Under the pieces are notes generated by a model. It did no database searches, was not told the DNA's origin, and was given only the letters and a program-made list of their open reading frames with translations. From contig NZ_MOMC01000002.1 of the NCBI RefSeq assembly GCF_001983105.1, forward strand, positions 83,577 to 95,532: a stretch of 11,956 bases of DNA, in the 5' to 3' direction. The position numbers and the translations under genes were made by a program. This stretch comes from Pseudofrankia asymbiotica. Lineage in GTDB: Bacteria; Actinomycetota; Actinomycetes; Frankiales; Frankiaceae. Of this stretch, positions 1,309 to 9,731 are shown one piece after another (the stretch's first letter is position 1; the number at the start of each line of letters is the position of its first letter).

Positions 1309-1584
1309 CTAGGCCGCGACCACCTTGCGAGGGCGTCCACGGGGGCGCTTGTACGGGACCACCACGCCGGTGACCACGAGCTCACCGCCCCACACGCCCC
1401 AGGGCTCGTGGCGGTCGAGCGCGGTCGCCAGGCAGGCCAGCCGGATAGGGCAGTCACGGCAGATCGCCTTGGCGGACTCGACGTCCGCGGGCGACTCCGC
1501 GAAGAACAGGTCGGGGTCAGCGTCCCAGCAGGGAAGCGAAAGACGCTCCCGCTCGATCCGGGCAACGATCGAGGGGTCGAACAC
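1309..1584 (-). CDS. whiB7: WhiB7 (WblC) transcriptional activator of intrinsic antibiotic resistance
   Basis: This encodes a 91-residue WhiB-family iron-sulfur regulator, close to the 92 residues of M. tuberculosis WhiB7. Cys19, Cys42, Cys45 and Cys51 are the four cluster ligands (C-x22-C-x2-C-x5-C). EPWGVWGGE at 60-68 is the family turn that contacts the primary sigma factor. KRPRGRPRK at 79-87 is the AT-hook that marks the WhiB7 subfamily and binds the minor groove of A/T-rich DNA upstream of -35 boxes. I chose the GTG at 1584 because GGAGG (1593-1597) lies 8 nt upstream. A longer in-frame version from a TTG at 1641 would begin inside the U-tract of the leader terminator, and a GTG at 1602 has only a weak GAAGAA site. 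Known WhiB7 proteins bind the housekeeping sigma factor and activate resistance genes and their own promoter. The location next to uvrD2 and mrx1 supports orthology. Confidence 0.93.
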   Translation of the reverse strand: MFDPSIVARIERERLSLPCWDADPDLFFAESPADVESAKAICRDCPIRLACLATALDRHEPWGVWGGELVVTGVVVPYKRPRGRPRKVVAA

Positions 1585-1641
1585 CGGTGTCACCTCCGAC
1601 ACGGGAATTTCTTCGGTGCGGTCAGAAGGGGAAAAACACAA

Positions 1642-1672
1642 AGGCCGCGGTCCCCAGCGGGGTCCGCGGCCT
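1642..1672 (-). terminator. Intrinsic terminator (attenuator) in the whiB7 leader
   Basis: Arms 1642-1655 and 1659-1672 form a 14-bp stem with one internal mismatch (1651/1663) and a 3-nt loop. Read on the minus strand, the stem is followed at once by a U-rich run (complement of 1631-1641). This is the only textbook U-tract terminator I see in the window. It sits 57 nt before the whiB7 start, so by default it would stop transcription before the gene. Mycobacterial and streptomycete whiB7/wblC leaders are known to carry such conditional terminators, relieved when ribosomes stall on an upstream ORF. Confidence 0.85.
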
Positions 1673-1690
1673 CGGGTTCTTGGCCTAGGT

Positions 1691-1707
1691 GCCGGTCTTA
1701 TACCGGC
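1691..1707 (-). repeat. Small hairpin over the leader-ORF stop codon
   Basis: Arms 1691-1696 and 1702-1707 are perfect 6-bp complements with a 5-nt loop that includes part of the TAA stop of the leader ORF. It lies between the candidate antiterminator arm and the attenuator, so a ribosome ending translation would block it. Confidence 0.45.
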
Positions 1708-2174
1708 GGTTCCGTCTGGGACGGACCCCTGCTGCGTGCGTGGCGTCGCGTGAACGCCTGGGTCTTGGCCTGAAGCTGGTTCGGGTGGGCAATGGCGGCC
1801 GTCTTGACGGCGGACTTGTCCCGTGCGGACGGAGCGGCGACGCTCGCGGCGAGCCGATCCGCCGGGACGACGACTGGCTTCACAGCCGGAACGACGTCGC
1901 GACGAGCCTCATCCGCCAGCGCATATGCCATCGGCGCGACGGCCGGCGGCAGATCCGCCATGGGCATGACGGCCAACGTCGAGGCAGTCATCCCGCCGCG
2001 CGAGGCCGATGCCTCCGGTGCGTCGGTGCCGTGCCAGAAACCGCCGGCGCCGGTAGCGCCGAGGATCCCGAGCGCGGGGCCCGACAGGATGCTGGCCGCA
2101 CGCGGACGCGCGAGAACGGACCCGAGCTCGGCACAGCCGGCGTCGAAGACCGCGACACGAATGCCAACAAGCAC
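1698..2174 (-). CDS. Leader ORF of whiB7, hypothetical 158-residue protein
   Basis: The GTG start at 2174 has GGAGG (2183-2187) 8 nt upstream, the same spacing as whiB7 itself. The ORF ends with TAA at 1698-1700, 25 nt before the attenuator stem. Codons are mostly G/C-ending, so it reads as a translated gene and not a chance frame. I recognise no domain. The N-terminal 60 residues are Ala/Gly/Leu-rich, the middle has several Met residues and Val/Ala/Pro-rich stretches, and the C-terminus is basic (RRHARSRG) and ends TEPPV. Its place between the whiB7 promoter and the attenuator suggests that its translation is sensed to control whiB7, as upstream ORFs do in other whiB7 leaders, though it is long for that role. 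It could also have a function as a protein. A longer frame from GTG 2276 has no ribosome binding site. Confidence 0.55.
   Translation of the reverse strand: MLVGIRVAVFDAGCAELGSVLARPRAASILSGPALGILGATGAGGFWHGTDAPEASASRGGMTASTLAVMPMADLPPAVAPMAYALADEARRDVVPAVKPVVVPADRLAASVAAPSARDKSAVKTAAIAHPNQLQAKTQAFTRRHARSRGPSQTEPPV
1722..1729 (-). promoter_or_regulatory. Candidate antiterminator 5' arm in the whiB7 leader
   Basis: On the minus strand these 8 nt (GGGGTCCG) are fully complementary to 1659-1666 (CGGACCCC), which is part of the 5' arm of the attenuator stem, with one further G-U pair possible at 1721. Pairing would open the terminator. The arm lies inside the last codons of the 158-codon leader ORF, 22-30 nt before its stop, where ribosome position could decide which fold forms. 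This is an inference from complementarity only. Confidence 0.45.
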
Positions 2175-2176
2175 CC

Positions 2177-2299
2177 CTATCGCCTCCTCTCGCGCGGCCG
2201 GTCCGCTCTCGCGTCCGACATCTGTCCCTGGCATCTGAGATCCGGAGCCACAACGATCGCCACGCCATTGATCCACGGGATGGGGACCCAGGGGATCAT
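2177..2299 (-). CDS. Possible short upstream ORF (40 codons) in the whiB7 leader
   Basis: ATG at 2299 to TAG at 2177-2179. The peptide starts hydrophobic (MIPWVPIPWINGVAIVV) and ends Arg-rich. The last codons span the GGAGG of the next leader ORF, and the stop is 2 nt before that ORF's GTG, a layout typical of translational coupling. No convincing ribosome binding site precedes the ATG and codon bias is only moderate, so this is a weak candidate. Confidence 0.3.
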   Translation of the reverse strand: MIPWVPIPWINGVAIVVAPDLRCQGQMSDARADRPRERRR

Positions 2300-2341
2300 G
2301 GCCCAGCGCTCAGTGAGCACCAGCTCCGGTGTTCGTGGGTA

Positions 2342-2380
2342 ACGGTAGGGGGCCGCCGGAACCGCGACAACTTATTTTTT
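2342..2380 (-). promoter_or_regulatory. whiB7 promoter with A/T-rich WhiB7 box
   Basis: Read on the minus strand: AAAAAATAAG (2371-2380), directly followed by -35 TTGTCG (2365-2370), a 17-bp spacer, and -10 TACCGT (2342-2347). Transcription would start near 2335. WhiB7-controlled promoters are known to carry an A/T-rich element just upstream of the -35 box, bound by the AT-hook. The A/T run is exceptional in this GC-rich window. The expected leader to the whiB7 GTG is about 750 nt and passes both leader ORFs and the attenuator. Confidence 0.75.
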
Positions 2381-2597: not shown

Positions 2598-4946
2598 TCA
2601 GCGCGTGTCGGTGACCAGGGCGAGCACACCGGCACCGTAGCTGTCGAGCTTCACCTGGCCGATGCCGGGGATGGCCACCAGCTCGGCGACCGTGCTCGGC
2701 CTGCTCTCGGCGATCGCCTCCAGCGTCGCGTCGGTCAGGATGACGAAGGCCGGCCTGCCCAGCTCGCGCGCCTTCTCCGCCCGCCACTCCCGCAACCGGT
2801 TGAGCAGGGCTCGGTCGACGTGGCGGGGGCAGGTCGCGCACCGGCCGACGCGGGCCGCCGCGCCGGTGAGCGCCTGACCGCACACCCGGCAGCGCACGGC
2901 CGACCGGCCCCTCGGCCTGGCCGCCCCGCTCACCGCGGCGCCGTCCCCGCCACGCCCTCCCGGGCCCTCCGACGAGCCTCGGCGGCCAGCGGACGCGGGT
3001 CGGCCACCCGCCGGGCGCAGCCCGTCGAGGAACCGGGACGGCCGCCGCGGGCGCCCCCCCGAGGCGCGCGCGAGCGACCACGACAACGCCAGGTGCTCCC
3101 GCGCCCGGGTGACACCCACGTAGAGCAGCCGGCGCTCCTCCTCGATCTCCTCGTCGCTCTGCGCGTGCACGATCGGCACCATCCCGTCGACGAGGCCGAC
3201 GAGGAAGACCGCGTCCCACTCCAGGCCCTTGGCCCCGTGCAGCGAGGCCAGCGTCACCCCTTCGACGGTGGGGACGTGCTGGTGCGTCGCCCGGTCGGCG
3301 AGGTCCGCCACGAAACGCTCCAGGCCGGCGTCGGGCTCGGCGACGGACAGGTCGACCGCCAGGCGGTGCAGGGCCGCGAGGTTCTCCCAGCGCTCCCGCT
3401 CGACGCCGACGGTGGGCGCCGTCGCCCGCCAGCCGCCGGCCCGCAGCACGTCCGCGACCGTGTCCGCGAGCCCCACCGGGCGGTCGGTGTCGGCGGAGCG
3501 CGCCGCGGCGCGCAGCAGCCGCACCGCGTCGCGCACCTCCGGCCGCTGGAAGAACCGCTCACCGCCCTTCACCAGGTACGGGATGCCAGCGGCGCCGATC
3601 GCCTCCTCGTAGGCCTCCGAGGCGGCGTTGATCCGGTAAAGCACGGCTATCTCGCTCGCCGGCACGCCGCCGGCGAGCAGGGTCCGGATCCGGGCCACCA
3701 CGGCCTTGGCCTCGTCCGCCTCGTCCGCGCACTCGAGCAGCGCCGGCTCCGGGCCGTCGGGGCGCATCGCGACGAGACCTGGCCTGCTGGCCGCCACCCC
3801 ACCGACGGCGGGGATGCCGGCGCGGCCGACGACCCCGCCGGGCCGGGCGCTCGCCGGCCCCGCGGGAGCCGCTGCGAGCAGCGCGTTCGCGAGACCGACG
3901 ACCTGGGGGGTCGAGCGATAGTCGCGGACGAGGTGGACGACGGTCGCGTCAGGGAACCGGCGCGGGAACTCGACGAGGTAGCGCGGTGAGGCCCCGCTGA
4001 ACGAGTAGATGGTCTGGTGCGGGTCGCCCACGACGCACAGGCTGTCCCGGTCCCCGAGCCAGGCGTCGAGCACCCGCTGCTGCAGCGGGTTGACGTCCTG
4101 GTACTCGTCCACGACGAAGTGCCGGTACCGCGACCGCAGCTCCGTCGCGACCCAGGAGTGCTCCTCGATGACCGCCGCGGTCAGCAACAGCAGGTCGTCG
4201 AAGTCCACCGCGCCGGCCACGCGCTTGACCTGCTCGTAGTCGGCGTAGAGCCGGCCGACCGCGTCCGCGGGCCAGACGGTCTCGCGCCCCGCCGCCTCGG
4301 CCGTGCGCGGGTAGTCCTCGGGGGTCACCATCGTGGCCTTCGCCCACTCGATCTCGGAGGCGAGGTCACGCAGCTCGCCCCGGTCAGGGCGTCGCGCGGA
4401 ACGGCCCGCGGCCTTCACGATGAGCGGGATGCGGCTCTCCACGAGCTTCGGGAGCGCGGCACCGGCGACCTTCGGCCAGAAGTACCCGAGCTGGCGCAGC
4501 GCCGCCGCGTGGAACGTCCGAGCCTGAACCCCCTCGACGTCCATCCCCCGCAGCCGGGCGCGCAGCTCACCGGCGGCCCGGTTGGTGAACGTCACCGCGA
4601 GCACCTGGTCGCCGGGCACGCCCTGGCGGGTCAGGTGCGCGATCCGGCGGGTGATGGTCCTCGTCTTCCCCGTCCCGGCGCCGGCGAGAATGCAGACCGG
4701 CCCGACCGGGGCGAGCACCGCCGCGCGTTGCTCCGGGTCGAGCCCGTCTTCCTCGGGGCGGTCCGCCAGCGCGCTGTCCTCGGGTTCTCCGCCCTCGTCA
4801 TGGCGTCTCCCGGTGGAGCCACCCGCGAGCCCGGCGGCCGCGGCGCCGCGCGGGCCGAATCCGCTCGTGGCCGGGCGCGGCCGGTCGGCGTCAGCCGGCA
4901 CAGCCGGGCGAGAGGGACGGGAGGCGGCGGCCAGCTCACTGGACAT
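2598..4946 (-). CDS. uvrD2: ATP-dependent DNA helicase UvrD2 (SF1A, HRDC domain)
   Basis: This is a 782-residue superfamily 1A helicase; the family unwinds DNA 3'-5' in repair. Motifs in order: Walker A GAGTGKT 89-95; Walker B VVDEYQD 278-284; motif III QTIYSFSGA 311-319; HGAKGLEW 570-577; and VGVTRARE 610-617. A tetracysteine motif (C686-x2-C689, C703-x2-C706) and a C-terminal HRDC domain (about 712-782) identify the UvrD2 branch of mycobacteria and relatives. Compared with mycobacterial UvrD2 (about 700 residues) it has an extra low-complexity N-terminus of about 65 residues, an Ala/Gly/Pro-rich insert near 358-390, and a Gly/Ser/Arg-rich linker at 643-682. The ATG at 4946 has only a weak AGG upstream, so the true start could differ. 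It lies upstream of whiB7 on the same strand, but whiB7 has its own promoter. It is divergent from mrx1. Confidence 0.95.
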   Translation of the reverse strand: MSSELAAASRPSRPAVPADADRPRPATSGFGPRGAAAAGLAGGSTGRRHDEGGEPEDSALADRPEEDGLDPEQRAAVLAPVGPVCILAGAGTGKTRTITRRIAHLTRQGVPGDQVLAVTFTNRAAGELRARLRGMDVEGVQARTFHAAALRQLGYFWPKVAGAALPKLVESRIPLIVKAAGRSARRPDRGELRDLASEIEWAKATMVTPEDYPRTAEAAGRETVWPADAVGRLYADYEQVKRVAGAVDFDDLLLLTAAVIEEHSWVATELRSRYRHFVVDEYQDVNPLQQRVLDAWLGDRDSLCVVGDPHQTIYSFSGASPRYLVEFPRRFPDATVVHLVRDYRSTPQVVGLANALLAAAPAGPASARPGGVVGRAGIPAVGGVAASRPGLVAMRPDGPEPALLECADEADEAKAVVARIRTLLAGGVPASEIAVLYRINAASEAYEEAIGAAGIPYLVKGGERFFQRPEVRDAVRLLRAAARSADTDRPVGLADTVADVLRAGGWRATAPTVGVERERWENLAALHRLAVDLSVAEPDAGLERFVADLADRATHQHVPTVEGVTLASLHGAKGLEWDAVFLVGLVDGMVPIVHAQSDEEIEEERRLLYVGVTRAREHLALSWSLARASGGRPRRPSRFLDGLRPAGGRPASAGRRGSSEGPGGRGGDGAAVSGAARPRGRSAVRCRVCGQALTGAAARVGRCATCPRHVDRALLNRLREWRAEKARELGRPAFVILTDATLEAIAESRPSTVAELVAIPGIGQVKLDSYGAGVLALVTDTR

Positions 4947-5377: not shown

Positions 5378-5491
5378 CGGATACGCAGAGCAACGAGAAA
5401 ATCGAGGCTCGAGGCCCTCCGGACGCATACACGGCCGGCTCATGGGACGGTGTCCGTCACTGCCCGTGAAGTTTGTGGGAGAGTTCGGCCT

Positions 5492-6814
5492 GTGTCGTCA
5501 CCACCCTCAGGACAGGCGCGCAGCACCGTGGACGCTGCCGCGCGGGCCGCGCAAGCCCTCCACCACATGGAGGCGACCGGGTTCGTGGAAATCTCCGCGA
5601 CAACGGCCACCTACCTGCAGGTAGTTGGGACGCTGCCCGGTCTGGATCCGGGAACGCAGTTTCCGCGGTCGGCGAGTCTCGTCGCCCGCGTGCTCGACGG
5701 TGCCCCAGCCATCGGCACCAATGTGGGGATGGAACCGAGTCTGGCGGACACGGCCGAACACGAACGCCTCGGGGTGGGCAGTCACGTTGTCGTGCCGGTC
5801 CTCACCCGGACGGGCGAGCTCGCCGGACTGCTGGTCGGACTCGACCGCGGCGCGGTCGAGGTCGGTTCCACCGCGCTGCCACTGCTGCGAGGCATAGCCG
5901 ATGGCCTGGGCGCCGCGTGGCCGGCGGACGGTGCCACGCCCGGCGCGGCCACCCCCGAGGTGGCCACGCCCGAGGTGGCCTCCCCCGCGGCGCCGAGCAC
6001 GGCCGGCGCGACTTCCACGAGCGCCGCGCCCGGCGTCCCCTCGCCCGAACCGCCGCGACCGGGGCCCGGCCAGCACGGCGCGCCGCCGACCGCGCCCGAC
6101 GCGGCGGCAGAGCCGCCAGTCACCGGCCCAGGGCGCGCCGTTCCCGGACCCGCCCCGCTGGCTGGAGGCGCCGCCGGGGCGGCCAGGGCACCCCGCCCTG
6201 GACCCCCGCCGCGGCCTGGTCCCCGGCCGGGACCGCCGCCGCGCGCCGCCGCCCCGCACCCCCCGCACCCCCCGCACTCCGCGCAGCCATCGCCGGCACC
6301 GCCCGCGGCGGCGCCGACGGCGGGCAGTGAGATGCGGCTGCGCCGGACCGGCGCCGGCTGGGTGGTCGAAGGCCCCGGCACGGACGTCCGACCGGTGGGC
6401 GACCTGATCTCCGCGATGGTGCTGGCCGATCTGCTGGCGGAGGACCTGAACCCGCCCGGCCGGCCGCGCCGCGCCGACCGGGAGCTTGGCGAGATCGAGA
6501 AGCTGCGGCTGTCGGTGGTCCAGCTGGAGCACGCGCTCGCGTCCAGGGTGATCGTGGAGCAGGCGATCGGCGTGCTGGCCGAGCGCCATCACATCAAGCC
6601 GAGAGACGCGTTCGAGCGGCTGCGGCGCACCGCGCGGGGCATGGGCCGACGGGTGCACGACCTGGCCCGCCAGGTCGTCGAGTCGGTCAGCGACCCGCGG
6701 ATCGCGTTGCCAGGAGAACTCGGCGGCCGGCCGGGGCCGGGGGCCGCGGCCGGGCCAGGGCCGGGCACCACGCCCCGGCCGACCCCACCGCGTCCCGCGC
6801 CTACTCGCCACTGA
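5492..6814 (+). CDS. ANTAR-domain regulator with GAF-like sensor and long proline-rich linker
   Basis: A protein of about 440 residues. Residues 25-145 look like a degenerate GAF sensor (small-molecule binding in the family). Residues 147-278 are a low-complexity Ala/Pro/Gly/Arg linker with a PPHPPH run. Residues 280-320 form a short conserved-looking block (MRLRRT...VGDLISAMVLADLLAEDL). Residues 341-399 are the ANTAR domain: a helix with LEHALASRVIVEQAIGVLAE, then the DAFERLRRTAR and RVHDLARQVV helices. ANTAR proteins bind paired hairpins in nascent RNA and prevent termination; the targets here are unknown. The tail of about 35 residues is again Pro/Gly-rich. I prefer the GTG at 5492 because GGGAGAG (5477-5483) lies 8 nt upstream; an in-frame GTG at 5450 would add 14 residues. 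The frame over the linker is supported by the conserved ends on both sides. Confidence 0.87.
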   Translation: MSSPPSGQARSTVDAAARAAQALHHMEATGFVEISATTATYLQVVGTLPGLDPGTQFPRSASLVARVLDGAPAIGTNVGMEPSLADTAEHERLGVGSHVVVPVLTRTGELAGLLVGLDRGAVEVGSTALPLLRGIADGLGAAWPADGATPGAATPEVATPEVASPAAPSTAGATSTSAAPGVPSPEPPRPGPGQHGAPPTAPDAAAEPPVTGPGRAVPGPAPLAGGAAGAARAPRPGPPPRPGPRPGPPPRAAAPHPPHPPHSAQPSPAPPAAAPTAGSEMRLRRTGAGWVVEGPGTDVRPVGDLISAMVLADLLAEDLNPPGRPRRADRELGEIEKLRLSVVQLEHALASRVIVEQAIGVLAERHHIKPRDAFERLRRTARGMGRRVHDLARQVVESVSDPRIALPGELGGRPGPGAAAGPGPGTTPRPTPPRPAPTRH

Positions 6815-6892: not shown

Positions 6893-8251
6893 TCAGGAAG
6901 CGGTTGGCTGGTCGATCACGGCCGTGGTGACGGCGCCGAGCGCCGCGACCGCGCCCGTGATCTTCTCGGCGTCGCCGACGAGGACCGTGACGAGCCTGGT
7001 CGGCGCGAGCAGACCGGCGGACACGGCGAGCACGTCCTCGGCGGTGACCTTGGTCAGTGCCGCCGGATGGTCACGTAGGTACTCGACCCCGATGCCCGCG
7101 CCCGCGAGCCCCGACAGCGTGGAGGCGAGGCCGGCGGCCGTCGCGCTACCGAGCGCCATGGTCCCCACCGAGTACTGCCGGGCCGCCTCGAGCTCCTCGG
7201 ACTCCGGCGCGAGAACCGCCATGCGGCCGAGCTCGTAGAAGATCTCCAGCAACGCGGGCCCGGTGACGTCGGTGGCGACGTCGGCGGCGGCCGTGAACCG
7301 GGAACCGGCCAGGTAGTGGTCGACGGAGCTGCGCGGCGAGTAGGTGTAGCCCTTGTCCTCGCGGATGTTGTCGACCAGCCGCGAGCTGAAGTAGCCCCCG
7401 AAGATCGTGTTGGCGAGCCGCTGCGTCGGGTAGCCGGGATCGTGGCGGTCGAGCGCGGCGCCACCGAGGCGGATGTTCGTCTGCACCGCGCCCGGCCGGT
7501 TCACGATCAGGATCGGGCCGGTCGCCAGGGCCGGGACCGCCGGCATGACCTCGGGCTCGCCACCGGACCAGCCGCCCAGCGCCGCCTCGACGGCGTCGAG
7601 CGCCGCCGCCGGGTCGACGTCGCCGACCAGGGTGAGGATCGCGCCGCGCGGGGAGATCCTGGCCGTGTGCAGGTCACGGACCGCCCCGACGCCCACCCCG
7701 GCGAGCACGGCCGGCTCGGCCACGACGCTGCCGTAGGGGTGGCCGGGGAACATCCGGCGCAGCAGCGCCTCCCGGGCGATCACGGCCGGCTGGCTGAGCG
7801 CCATCGTGGCGTCCTCGACCACCCGGTCGCGCTCGCCGCTGAACTCGTCGTCGGGGTAGCTCGCCTCGGTCAGCACCTCGGCGAGGATCCCCAGCAGTGG
7901 GTCGAGGTTGGTGGCCAGCGCCGAGCCGACGACCGCGAGCCTGTCGGCGTCGACCCCGGTGGAGAGGGATCCGCCGAGCGCCTGCACGGCGGTGGCGATC
8001 TCCACCCGGTCACGCTTCGCCGTACCGGTGAAGAGCGTCTCGGCGAGGAGCTCGGCCTGCGCGGCGAAGTCCGTGCCCAGGCCGGTGAACGGGATCCGAA
8101 GCCTCAGCTCCACCAGCGGGACGCTGGTACGCGCCACCACCAGCACCCGCAGCCCGCTCGGCAGCGTCCGCTCCACCACTGTCGGAAGCTCCGCCGGCAC
8201 CGTCGGGCGGACCGCCGGGATGATGCTGGCCCGCTCGGTCGTCGTCGTCAT
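6893..8251 (-). CDS. M16 family peptidase subunit lacking the zinc motif
   Basis: A 452-residue M16 (pitrilysin/processing-peptidase) fold protein. The place of the zinc motif HxxEH is taken by E67-L-L-A-E71 (before TLFTGT), so both metal histidines and the catalytic Glu are missing. The second-half substrate-binding motif is intact: GGYFSSRL at 285-292, then R297 and Y302/Y304 in NIREDKGYTYSPRSS. In bacterial heterodimers this Arg/Tyr subunit completes the active site of its HxxEH partner, which is encoded just upstream at 8388-9731. No signal peptide is visible. The ATG at 8251 has no good ribosome binding site, but it overlaps as ATGA the stop of a 38-codon frame (8248-8364), which may supply ribosomes by coupling. 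Confidence 0.92.
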   Translation of the reverse strand: MTTTTERASIIPAVRPTVPAELPTVVERTLPSGLRVLVVARTSVPLVELRLRIPFTGLGTDFAAQAELLAETLFTGTAKRDRVEIATAVQALGGSLSTGVDADRLAVVGSALATNLDPLLGILAEVLTEASYPDDEFSGERDRVVEDATMALSQPAVIAREALLRRMFPGHPYGSVVAEPAVLAGVGVGAVRDLHTARISPRGAILTLVGDVDPAAALDAVEAALGGWSGGEPEVMPAVPALATGPILIVNRPGAVQTNIRLGGAALDRHDPGYPTQRLANTIFGGYFSSRLVDNIREDKGYTYSPRSSVDHYLAGSRFTAAADVATDVTGPALLEIFYELGRMAVLAPESEELEAARQYSVGTMALGSATAAGLASTLSGLAGAGIGVEYLRDHPAALTKVTAEDVLAVSAGLLAPTRLVTVLVGDAEKITGAVAALGAVTTAVIDQPTAS

Positions 8252-8364
8252 CGCCCGCGCCGTCCCGTCGCTAGATGTCCTCTACCGGCCCCAGCCGCCG
8301 GGCACGCGCGACCACGCCACGATCGCGGCTGCCTCGGCCGATCGGCCGCCCCGCGGGCGACCAT
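8248..8364 (-). CDS. Possible 38-codon Arg-rich coupling ORF between the M16 genes
   Basis: ATG at 8364 with GGAAGGA (8369-8375) 4 nt upstream, starting 23 nt after the stop of the catalytic M16 gene. It ends in a TGA that overlaps the ATG of the next M16 gene (ATGA). The peptide is about one-third Arg and resembles no family I know. About a third of its codons end in A or T, unlike its neighbours, so it is more likely a coupling device or chance than a functional protein. It fills the 136-bp gap almost entirely. Confidence 0.3.
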   Translation of the reverse strand: MVARGAADRPRQPRSWRGRACPAAGAGRGHLATGRRGR

Positions 8365-8387
8365 CGTGTCCTTCCACCCGTCCACCG

Positions 8388-9731
8388 TCATGAGGCCGCC
8401 CCGGCCTTCAGTTCCAGCACTGAACGCCCCTGCGCGCGCAGCGCGGCCGCGGCGGCGGCGACGTCGTCGCCCGTCACCTCGGACAGCAGCGCCGGCAGCT
8501 CGTTGAGTGTCTCCGGGCGGCCCCGGTGCAGCTCGAAGGCGCCGAACGCGAGCGCCCGGCCCAGCGCGTCGTCCGCCTCGCGCAGCAGCCCCGAGGCGAC
8601 GCGCGCGCGTATCCGCTCCAGTTCGCCGTCGGCGAGGCCGTCGGTCGCGACCCGGTCGAGCTCCTCGTCGATCGCGGCGAGGATCCCGTCCGCCGGGGAC
8701 TCCGCCGGGTGCCGGGCCTCCACCGTCAGCAGCAGCGGGTCGCGCTGGTCGAACGGGTCGCCGAAGGTGCCGACGTAGCTGCTCACGCCGATCACTGACC
8801 GGTCGGTCTGTACCAGCCGCCGCTCGAGCCGGCTCGCGTCACCGGAAGTGAGCACGTCGGTCAGCAGGTAGTGCGCGAGGAAGGCGGACAGGTCCGCATC
8901 CGGGTCCGGGACCCGGTAACCGATCGCGAGCGCCGGCCGGGGCGCGAGCCTGTCGACGAGATCGCCCCGCCGCTCGTCGGACCTGACCGGCTCGGCGAAG
9001 CTGCGTCGTTCCGGCACCGCGCGGGCGGCGATATCGCCGAAGTACCGTTCCACGAGTTTCATCGCGTCGTCGGCGGCGAAGTCACCCGCGACCGTCAGGA
9101 CGGCGTTGCCCGGGGCGTAGAACTTCTCGAAGAAGTCCTCCGCGTCGTCCAGGCTCGCCGCCTCCAACTCGCTGAAGTCGCCGTAACCGTTGTGGGCGTT
9201 CGGGAAGGTGTCGAACGCGACCGGCGGCAGGGTGATCCAGGGGAAGCCGCCGTATGGGCGGTTCATCACGTTTACCCGGATTTCCTCCTGGACGACGGCG
9301 ATCTGGTTGTCCAGGTTCTCGCGGGTGATTTTCGGGGCCCGCATCCGGTCGGCCTCAAGGAAGAGAGCCAGCTCGAGCGCGCCGGCCGGGAGCAGCTCGT
9401 AGTAGTCCGTGTGGTCCGGGTGTGTGGAGCCGTTGAAGATTCCGCCGGCGGCCTGCACGTACTTCGGGTGTTCGGCCTTCCCGACGTTCTCGCTGCCCTG
9501 GAACATCATGTGTTCGAACAGGTGCGCGAACCCGGTGCGGCCCTCGGGCTCGGATCGGAATCCGACGTCATAGTGCACGGCGATGGCCACGACCGGCGCC
9601 GTCGCGTCAGGGGCGAGCACCACCCGCAGCCCGTTGTCAAGCCGGGCCTTCTCCAACGGATAGGCGGGCGAGGGAAGAGACGGGGTCATCGTGGCGGACA
9701 CCGTCGGGCCGGTGCCGGTACGTGAGGACAC
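8388..9731 (-). CDS. M16 family zinc metallopeptidase, catalytic subunit
   Basis: A 447-residue protein. H70-L-F-E73-H74 is the inverted zinc motif HxxEH, and E150 (in VVQEEIR) is the third zinc ligand at the usual distance of about 76 residues. The GGIFNGSTHPDHTDYYE block (96-112) is the typical core strand and loop, and GYGDFSELE follows at 182-190. It is the active partner of the non-zinc subunit encoded downstream; together they likely form a heterodimeric clamshell protease for unfolded peptides, probably cytoplasmic as no signal is visible. Start: GTG at 9731 has no ribosome binding site, but a TAGCGT -10-like box (9740-9745, minus strand) lies 8 nt upstream, compatible with leaderless initiation. 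In-frame GTG 9701 and ATG 9689 are alternatives. Confidence 0.93.
   Translation of the reverse strand: MSSRTGTGPTVSATMTPSLPSPAYPLEKARLDNGLRVVLAPDATAPVVAIAVHYDVGFRSEPEGRTGFAHLFEHMMFQGSENVGKAEHPKYVQAAGGIFNGSTHPDHTDYYELLPAGALELALFLEADRMRAPKITRENLDNQIAVVQEEIRVNVMNRPYGGFPWITLPPVAFDTFPNAHNGYGDFSELEAASLDDAEDFFEKFYAPGNAVLTVAGDFAADDAMKLVERYFGDIAARAVPERRSFAEPVRSDERRGDLVDRLAPRPALAIGYRVPDPDADLSAFLAHYLLTDVLTSGDASRLERRLVQTDRSVIGVSSYVGTFGDPFDQRDPLLLTVEARHPAESPADGILAAIDEELDRVATDGLADGELERIRARVASGLLREADDALGRALAFGAFELHRGRPETLNELPALLSEVTGDDVAAAAAALRAQGRSVLELKAGAAS

Follow-up and report, generated by a model that had tools for sequence, protein, structure and literature searches.

How is the antibiotic-response gene whiB7 controlled in a bacterium in which the gene lies behind a leader of about 750 nucleotides (nt) that holds an open reading frame (ORF) of 158 codons? 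This question is raised by an 11,956-nt stretch of Pseudofrankia asymbiotica DNA (assembly GCF_001983105.1, contig NZ_MOMC01000002.1, positions 83,577 to 95,532), which is called the window throughout and in which whiB7 and its leader are encoded on the minus strand (Table 1). The Frankia family is known for nitrogen-fixing plant symbionts. The original prediction, whose coordinates proved correct on a minus-strand reading, described the leader as a ribosome-sensing attenuator with two tandem upstream ORFs (uORFs). Our analysis indicates that the locus is very probably a whiB7/wblC uORF attenuator in a long form, with one 158-codon uORF (uORF2). Attenuation by ribosome sensing is the best reading of the leader and is backed by the conserved anatomy of promoter, long uORF and terminator, which recurs in all eight Pseudofrankia genomes compared.

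Table 1 Features of the whiB7 locus in window coordinates
Feature	Position	Strand	Remarks
AT box AAAAAT, 3 nt (AAG) upstream of -35 TTGTCG	2365..2380 (AAAAAT-AAG-TTGTCG 2379-2365)	minus	Sequence
-10 element TACCGT	2342..2347	minus	17-nt spacer from -35
First ORF (ORF1)	2177..2320	minus	47 codons from GTG 2320; 40 from ATG 2299; 14 from internal ATG 2221
Shine-Dalgarno GAGGAGG for uORF2	2183..2189	minus	Sequence; 8 nt upstream of uORF2
uORF2, 158 codons, GTG start, TAA stop, putative regulatory frame	1698..2174	minus	Homologous frames in relatives, gaps in threes
Candidate antiterminator 5' arm CAGC-A-GGGGTCCG, within last uORF2 codons	1722..1734	minus	Nascent-RNA fold, shuffles, covariation
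Hairpin GCCGGT..ACCGGC, uORF2 stop codon in loop	1691..1707	minus	Folds
Candidate antiterminator 3' arm CGGACCCCGCTG, overlaps terminator 5' arm and loop	1655..1666	minus	Nascent-RNA fold, covariation
Terminator stem AGGCCGCGG-A-CCCC / GGGG-A-CCGCGGCCT, loop GCT	1642..1672	minus	About -33 kcal/mol with flanks
U-tract TTTGTGTTTTT	1632..1642	minus	Sequence; TTTGTGTTT in all eight Pseudofrankia
whiB7	1309..1584	minus	GTG 1584 probable start, Shine-Dalgarno GGAGGTG 1597-1591; Cys motif, GVWGG and AT-hook RGRPRK in translation
UvrD-like helicase with HRDC domain	2598-4946		whiB7 located downstream of this gene

Anatomy and conservation of the leader

The gene behind the leader encodes a WhiB protein (Pfam PF02467, E 1.1e-16) whose GVWGG and RGRPRK motifs fit WhiB7, with its Wbl domain, G-WGG and AT-hook; GTG 1602 is an alternative start. 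Among the best 80 of 171 matches, the closest named relative of the WhiB7 protein was that of Pseudofrankia sp. BMG5.36 (97% identity), followed by Frankia nepalensis, Frankia sp. AgB1.9 and a Frankia bin. A whole-genome search gave seven further genomes of the same genus as the window, so that the Pseudofrankia set comprised eight genomes (loci L001-L008) and the Frankiaceae set 16 loci, eight of them from outside Pseudofrankia.

The predicted A/T-box promoter was found at 2380-2342 and is kept in all eight Pseudofrankia. Its AT box agrees in five of six letters with the published WblC site GAAAWY, which is likewise placed 3 nt upstream of the -35 element according to a passage in PMC7157823, and the two elements together mark a WhiB7-type promoter, which is probably autoregulated. 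The AT-box region reads AAAAATAAG in seven of the eight genomes and AAAAATAGG in the eighth, the -10 element TACCGTTA is present in every one, and the distance from the -10 element to the GGCC closing the terminator stem is 659-806 nt. Transcription would start near 2336, and the distance from there to the whiB7 start codon reproduces the predicted leader length of about 750 nt. A consensus scanner, whose promoter pattern is TTGACA/TATAAT, reported neither the whiB7 promoter nor the terminator; our guess is that the A-A mismatch in the stem made it miss the latter. By eye, the first transcribed bases (2324-2334; GAACACCGGAG or a near form) look alike in several Frankiaceae leaders.

The 158-codon ORF with a strong ribosome binding site is present as described, and homologous long uORFs occur in all eight Pseudofrankia, with 158, 155, 158, 198, 160, 160, 172 and 146 codons from hand-chosen starts. 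In all eight other Frankiaceae loci, a strong Shine-Dalgarno (SD) sequence leads a uORF of 53-138 codons, and each of the 16 Frankiaceae uORFs has an SD-like stretch ahead of the start that was chosen. The stop codon lies 20-27 nt before the terminator GGCCGCG in 14 of these 16 loci and 42 nt before it in L005 and L006. Because the 158-codon frame stays open in 21% of its dinucleotide shuffles, its presence alone is uninformative; what makes it significant is its conservation. Across six Pseudofrankia pairs, 12 of 12 gaps within uORF2 are multiples of three (about six separate events, since L005 and L006 are near-identical), whereas in the leader upstream of uORF2 12 of 13 gaps are not (lengths 1, 2 and 13, with one gap of 15). 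The uORFs of Lentzea gave a similar picture, with 48 of 48 pairwise gaps being multiples of three, although these pairs are not independent. The SD sequence, the kept frame and the gaps in threes suggest that uORF2 is translated.

The frame is kept while the peptide drifts. We compared ratios of nonsynonymous to synonymous change (dN/dS) in hand-picked groups, excluding the last 15 uORF codons and L006 (near-identical to L005) and using only pairs in which the proportion of synonymous differences (pS) satisfied 0.02<pS<0.5. Pooled uORF values were 0.91 in Pseudofrankia (12 of 21 pairs used), 0.64 in Lentzea (21 of 21), 0.97 in Actinokineospora (9 of 21), 0.87 in Glycomyces (10 of 21) and 0.82 in the other Frankiaceae (3 of 10); the whiB7 values, in the same order, were 0.14, 0.12, 0.18, 0.18 and 0.08 (21 pairs per group, except in the other Frankiaceae, with one). 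Bootstrap ranges for the whole uORF were 0.55-1.32 (L001-L003), 0.43-1.03 (L005, L007), 0.47-0.98 (Lentzea), 0.53-1.26 (L025, L027, L028) and 0.72-1.36 (L045, L049, L065), and in view of these ranges a weak constraint on the peptide is likely in Lentzea and may exist in the other groups. The last 15 codons of the Lentzea uORFs showed no synonymous change at all, as expected if this region is kept as RNA. That the amino acids drift almost freely while the frame and the stop position are kept suggests that the switch reads the progress of ribosomes and not any particular arrest peptide. A (D/G)(A/V)GC motif at 2133-2144, close to the uORF2 N-terminus, is kept in seven of the eight Pseudofrankia while the rest drifts.

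Terminator, competing pairing and the proposed switch

The predicted U-tract terminator was recovered, with the stem at 1672-1642 and the U-tract at 1642-1632. It is present in 8 of 8 Pseudofrankia, and a like hairpin with a T-rich tail was found in 16 of 16 Frankiaceae loci, where three stem pairs show two-sided changes (15 aligned sequences, L006 excluded). The 3' segment 1625-1760 folds 4.4 standard deviations below its shuffles. The antiterminator-like segment also gained support: in nascent RNA ending just past the terminator 5' arm, this arm is predicted to pair with the end of the uORF through 10-13 pairs in all 16 Frankiaceae leaders, and 14 of the 16 full-length segments, that of the window among them, prefer the terminator fold. 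Since the stop comes earlier in L005 and L006, their fold and duplex segments were displaced by 18 nt. The energy of the window antiterminator duplex was reached by only 5 of 300 mononucleotide shuffles, and in 13 of 16 leaders the duplex beats at least 92% of such shuffles. Covariation in the antiterminator core is modest, with two compensatory pairs in the same 15 aligned sequences. When antiterminator and terminator arms were swapped between genera, no clear cognate advantage appeared, as several non-cognate pairs scored equally well or better, and Rfam gave no match in the window at gathering score.

We infer the following course of events from this anatomy, of which the promoter, frame, stop position, terminator and competing pairing are conserved as sequence. 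RNA polymerase would start at the WhiB7-activated promoter near 2336, and ribosomes would load at 2174 and translate the single 158-codon uORF. Ribosomes that keep pace with the polymerase up to the uORF end would cover 1734-1722, so that the terminator at 1672-1642 folds and transcription ends near 1635. If ribosomes were slowed or stopped anywhere upstream in the uORF, by a ribosome-targeting drug or by a shortage of charged transfer RNA, 1734-1722 would be left free to pair with 1666-1655 as soon as the latter is transcribed, the terminator would be blocked and whiB7 would be transcribed, after which WhiB7 would amplify its own promoter. The uORF would thus serve as a length of translated road and not as a specific stalling peptide, and ORF1 would have no required part in the switch.

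The spacing that this mechanism calls for recurs beyond the family. We fetched 100 actinobacterial whiB7-like loci and removed four duplicates; in 92 of the 96 examined, the whiB7-like gene is preceded by a strong terminator. L014, L016, L019 and L020 were dropped from the survey, and the loci are not independent, as many belong to Glycomyces, Lentzea or Actinokineospora. In 65 of the 92, the U-tract is preceded at a distance of 48-68 nt by the stop of an SD-led ORF with 30 codons or more, while the same spacing was found at 152 of 4114 random positions (3.7%) and in 0-4 of 92 loci when the U-tract position was shifted. Counted within the 65 are four loci (L068, L087, L026 and L096) whose automatic uORF starts, giving 220, 304, 386 and 520 codons, are artefacts of far-upstream SD-like starts; with starts restricted to the region downstream of the promoter, L068 has none, L087 has 68 codons and L026 has 107, and L096 lacks a recognised promoter.

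Several observations weigh against attenuation by this route. By the rules applied, the remaining 27 of 92 loci have no uORF at the expected spacing, among them Pseudofrankia L005 and L006, whose stop lies 18 nt earlier. Some of these 27 are near misses (45, 47, 72 and 73 nt), five others (L058, L082, L083, L097 and L098) have a frame ending 59-61 nt before the U-tract that starts without the SD pattern used, and inspection of L043, L046 and L053 revealed no such frame. The start of uORF2 is itself ambiguous, with upstream in-frame starts in L001-L003 and L005-L008 that would make it longer and are SD-led in L002, L005 and L006. As for the folds, the lowest-energy structure of the full-length segment is not the terminator in L004 and L011. 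The energy of the antiterminator duplex was reached by 201 of 300 shuffles in L026, where the duplex is no better than they are, by 60 in L009, where it is weak, and by 35 in L027, a borderline case; both compensatory pairs of the antiterminator come from L009. With 30 nt around the stop codon blocked, the antiterminator pairs stay in place (14 in the window, 6-14 across all 16 leaders); blocking the 5' arm itself abolishes them in seven of 16 leaders, the window included, and leaves 2-13 pairs in the other nine. Because the pairs survive modelled blocking, a simple picture of a ribosome resting at the stop codon would seem insufficient, and the timing of ribosomes or the ribosomes that follow would have to matter.

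Alternative explanations

The tandem layout of the original prediction would have ORF1, ending 2 nt before uORF2, govern the loading of uORF2 through termination-reinitiation or coupling. The elements are there in the window: the predicted 40-codon ORF runs from 2299 to 2177 and reaches 47 codons from a GTG preceded by an SD sequence (GGAG), and its TAG (2179-2177) ends 2 nt before the uORF2 GTG. Only L001-L004 retain a 14-codon frame with the same TAG (2177-2221; 15 codons in L004); in L010, an ORF of 20 codons with an SD sequence overlaps the main uORF start by 4 nt. Among the relatives, however, the arrangement dissolves. A GTG occupies the ORF1 start position in six of eight Pseudofrankia, with an SD sequence only in L001-L003, and the frame behind it runs for 47 codons in the window but for 73 in L002, 20 in L003 and 28, 23 and 52 in L005-L007, overlapping uORF2 in L002 and L007. 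The TAG is absent from L005-L008, and in L005-L007 an ATG at roughly the place matching 2221 is in frame with uORF2 instead. The three closest species differ by 1-nt indels in the ORF1 region, whereas the uORF2 gap is 9 nt, and, apart from L010, none of the eight Frankiaceae leaders outside Pseudofrankia places an SD-led ORF of at least 8 codons ahead of the main one. Since the length and frame of ORF1 vary even in close relatives, tandem uORFs were rejected as a conserved layout, only uORF2 being conserved; a true tandem switch is quite unlikely. ORF1 would be a chance frame, with local coupling possible in some species, and the switch probably does not require it. By eye, a leaderless mini-ORF of 8 codons (GTG or ATG AAC ACC...) was seen at the start of the leader in L002, L003 and L007; we set it aside, since the window reads ACG at that place and in other genomes the frame continues. 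In the literature we looked at, in which Lee et al. 2022 is represented through citing papers, no description of tandem whiB7 uORFs was found, and we do not claim that one is absent from print.

The peptide encoded by uORF2 invites three further explanations. An ordinary small protein gene that precedes whiB7 by chance, with a plain terminator between them, would account for a product of small-protein length, a good SD sequence and coding-like G+C contents by codon position (0.75, 0.61, 0.80), but we rejected it as highly improbable on the dN/dS near 1, a search of 5.8 billion proteins that gave just four matches at E 0.01, one of them its own entry, and the lack of any Pfam family at E 0.01; moreover, the length varies from 146 to 198 codons within the genus, yet the distance from stop to U-tract is similar in six of eight members. 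An erm-type attenuator, in which one given drug and one given nascent peptide arrest the ribosome at a fixed codon, could draw on the N-terminal (D/G)(A/V)GC motif and on the few amino acid changes in the first 15 codons of L005/L007 (proportion of nonsynonymous differences 0.029, pS 0.190). The N-termini differ in other Frankiaceae, though, and in the four other sets compared, dN/dS over codons 1-15 is 1.1-1.8, with ranges that are wide. The whiB7 uORF is described in a passage of PMC12121999 as sensing several drug classes as well as amino acid starvation. An arrest peptide here is quite unlikely. A sensor that responds above all to alanine supply, with a shortage of alanyl-tRNA as the main signal, is suggested by an alanine content that, in seven Pseudofrankia uORFs (all but L006), is 21-28% and exceeds that of all 82 background ORFs (pooled 14.9%). 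The background ORFs were taken from nine 20-kb genome stretches and, having 200 codons or more each, scatter less because they are longer. The mycobacterial whiB7 uORF is also alanine-rich. A role of WhiB7 in mycobacterial alanine starvation is mentioned in PMC10727445. Nevertheless, the excess in the window is small (22.2% against 19.8% expected from composition), and across 62 actinobacterial uORFs no alanine enrichment was found (mean 14.8%; base composition predicts 14.4%), so that a general enrichment was discarded and alanine sensing as the primary function is rather unlikely.

Leader size, known systems and neighbouring features

The attenuator with one long uORF is distinguished by its size. 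Of the 92 whiB7-like leaders, 52 carry the promoter pattern, which went unrecognised in the other 40, against a single match in 442,166 nt of the opposite strand. Over the 52 leaders, the distance from the estimated start to the U-tract is 269-803 nt, and the eight longest (651-803 nt) are the eight Pseudofrankia. When only starts downstream of the promoter were allowed, 37 uORFs of 36-198 codons remained; those of other genera span 36-143 codons, the longest being that of Actinocatenispora comari. The claim of an unusually large leader therefore stands as far as its rank is concerned, but it is a matter of degree: the size of the window leader is extreme and continuous with the rest.

The layout itself has been published for whiB7/wblC, and what is uncommon here is the size. 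Passages of PMC10727445 and PMC11550727 describe uORF attenuation of whiB7 in actinobacteria, citing Lee et al. 2022 and Burian and Thompson 2018 for the uORF-terminator attenuator of Streptomyces and Mycobacterium; PMC11550727 outlines the same switch, in which the uORF end forms the antiterminator, and uORF-mediated attenuation of wblC is mentioned in PMC7157823. The window shares with these systems the WhiB7 gene, the AT box by the -35 element, the SD-led uORF, the Rho-independent terminator and an antiterminator predicted to form from the uORF end. It differs from the mycobacterial form in that transcription of M. marinum and M. bovis whiB7 is stated in PMC4128351 to start about 350 nt upstream of the gene, with one SD-led uORF, as compared with about 750 nt and 158 codons here. 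In the ilvB1 leader of Mycobacterium tuberculosis (as outlined in PMC13236596) the position of the ribosome on a uORF likewise picks antiterminator or terminator, but that leader is short (the U-tract ends at +126), has a cluster of regulatory codons (LVVI) and serves a biosynthetic target. The ARE ABC-F attenuators of the actinomycete Streptomyces coelicolor (are5sc and tiaA, as presented in PMC12421871) also combine an antibiotic-sensing uORF with a terminator and antiterminator, yet their peptides have 3-9 residues and stalling occurs at the start codon. Our literature search turned up no paper on the whiB7 leader in Frankiaceae, and the Frankia family probably joins the bacteria that control whiB7 through a translated leader.

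A nearly neutral peptide, a kept frame and a steady distance from stop to terminator lead us to predict broad sensing through ribosome transit and not through a drug-specific peptide, a prediction that bears on stalling inside the whiB7 uORF, a point stated in PMC12121999 as not yet tested. We speculate, tentatively and with more doubt than conviction, that whiB7 uORFs in general may be sequence-free sensors of ribosome transit, in which frame, SD sequence and stop-terminator distance are selected, the peptide is free, and a stop anywhere along the uORF is read; length would then set the sensitivity, and the alanine-rich Pseudofrankia form, the longest version here, might be tuned to low drug doses or to alanine supply. 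The part worth following is the evolution of a uORF that is kept in frame and is nearly free in sequence.

Around the leader, some minor features were noted. About 75 nt past the whiB7 stop, a long inverted repeat that looks perfect by eye (1191-1232; TGGCCGCCTGGCTCGCCCCG / CGGGGCGAGCCAGGCGGCCA) lacks a T-run and is perhaps the end of the whiB7 transcript. Two neighbouring M16 peptidase-like genes occupy 6893-9731 on the minus strand. On the plus strand, an ORF at 5450-6814, about 3 kb from the whiB7 leader, encodes an ANTAR RNA-binding domain (PF03861, E 3.3e-16).

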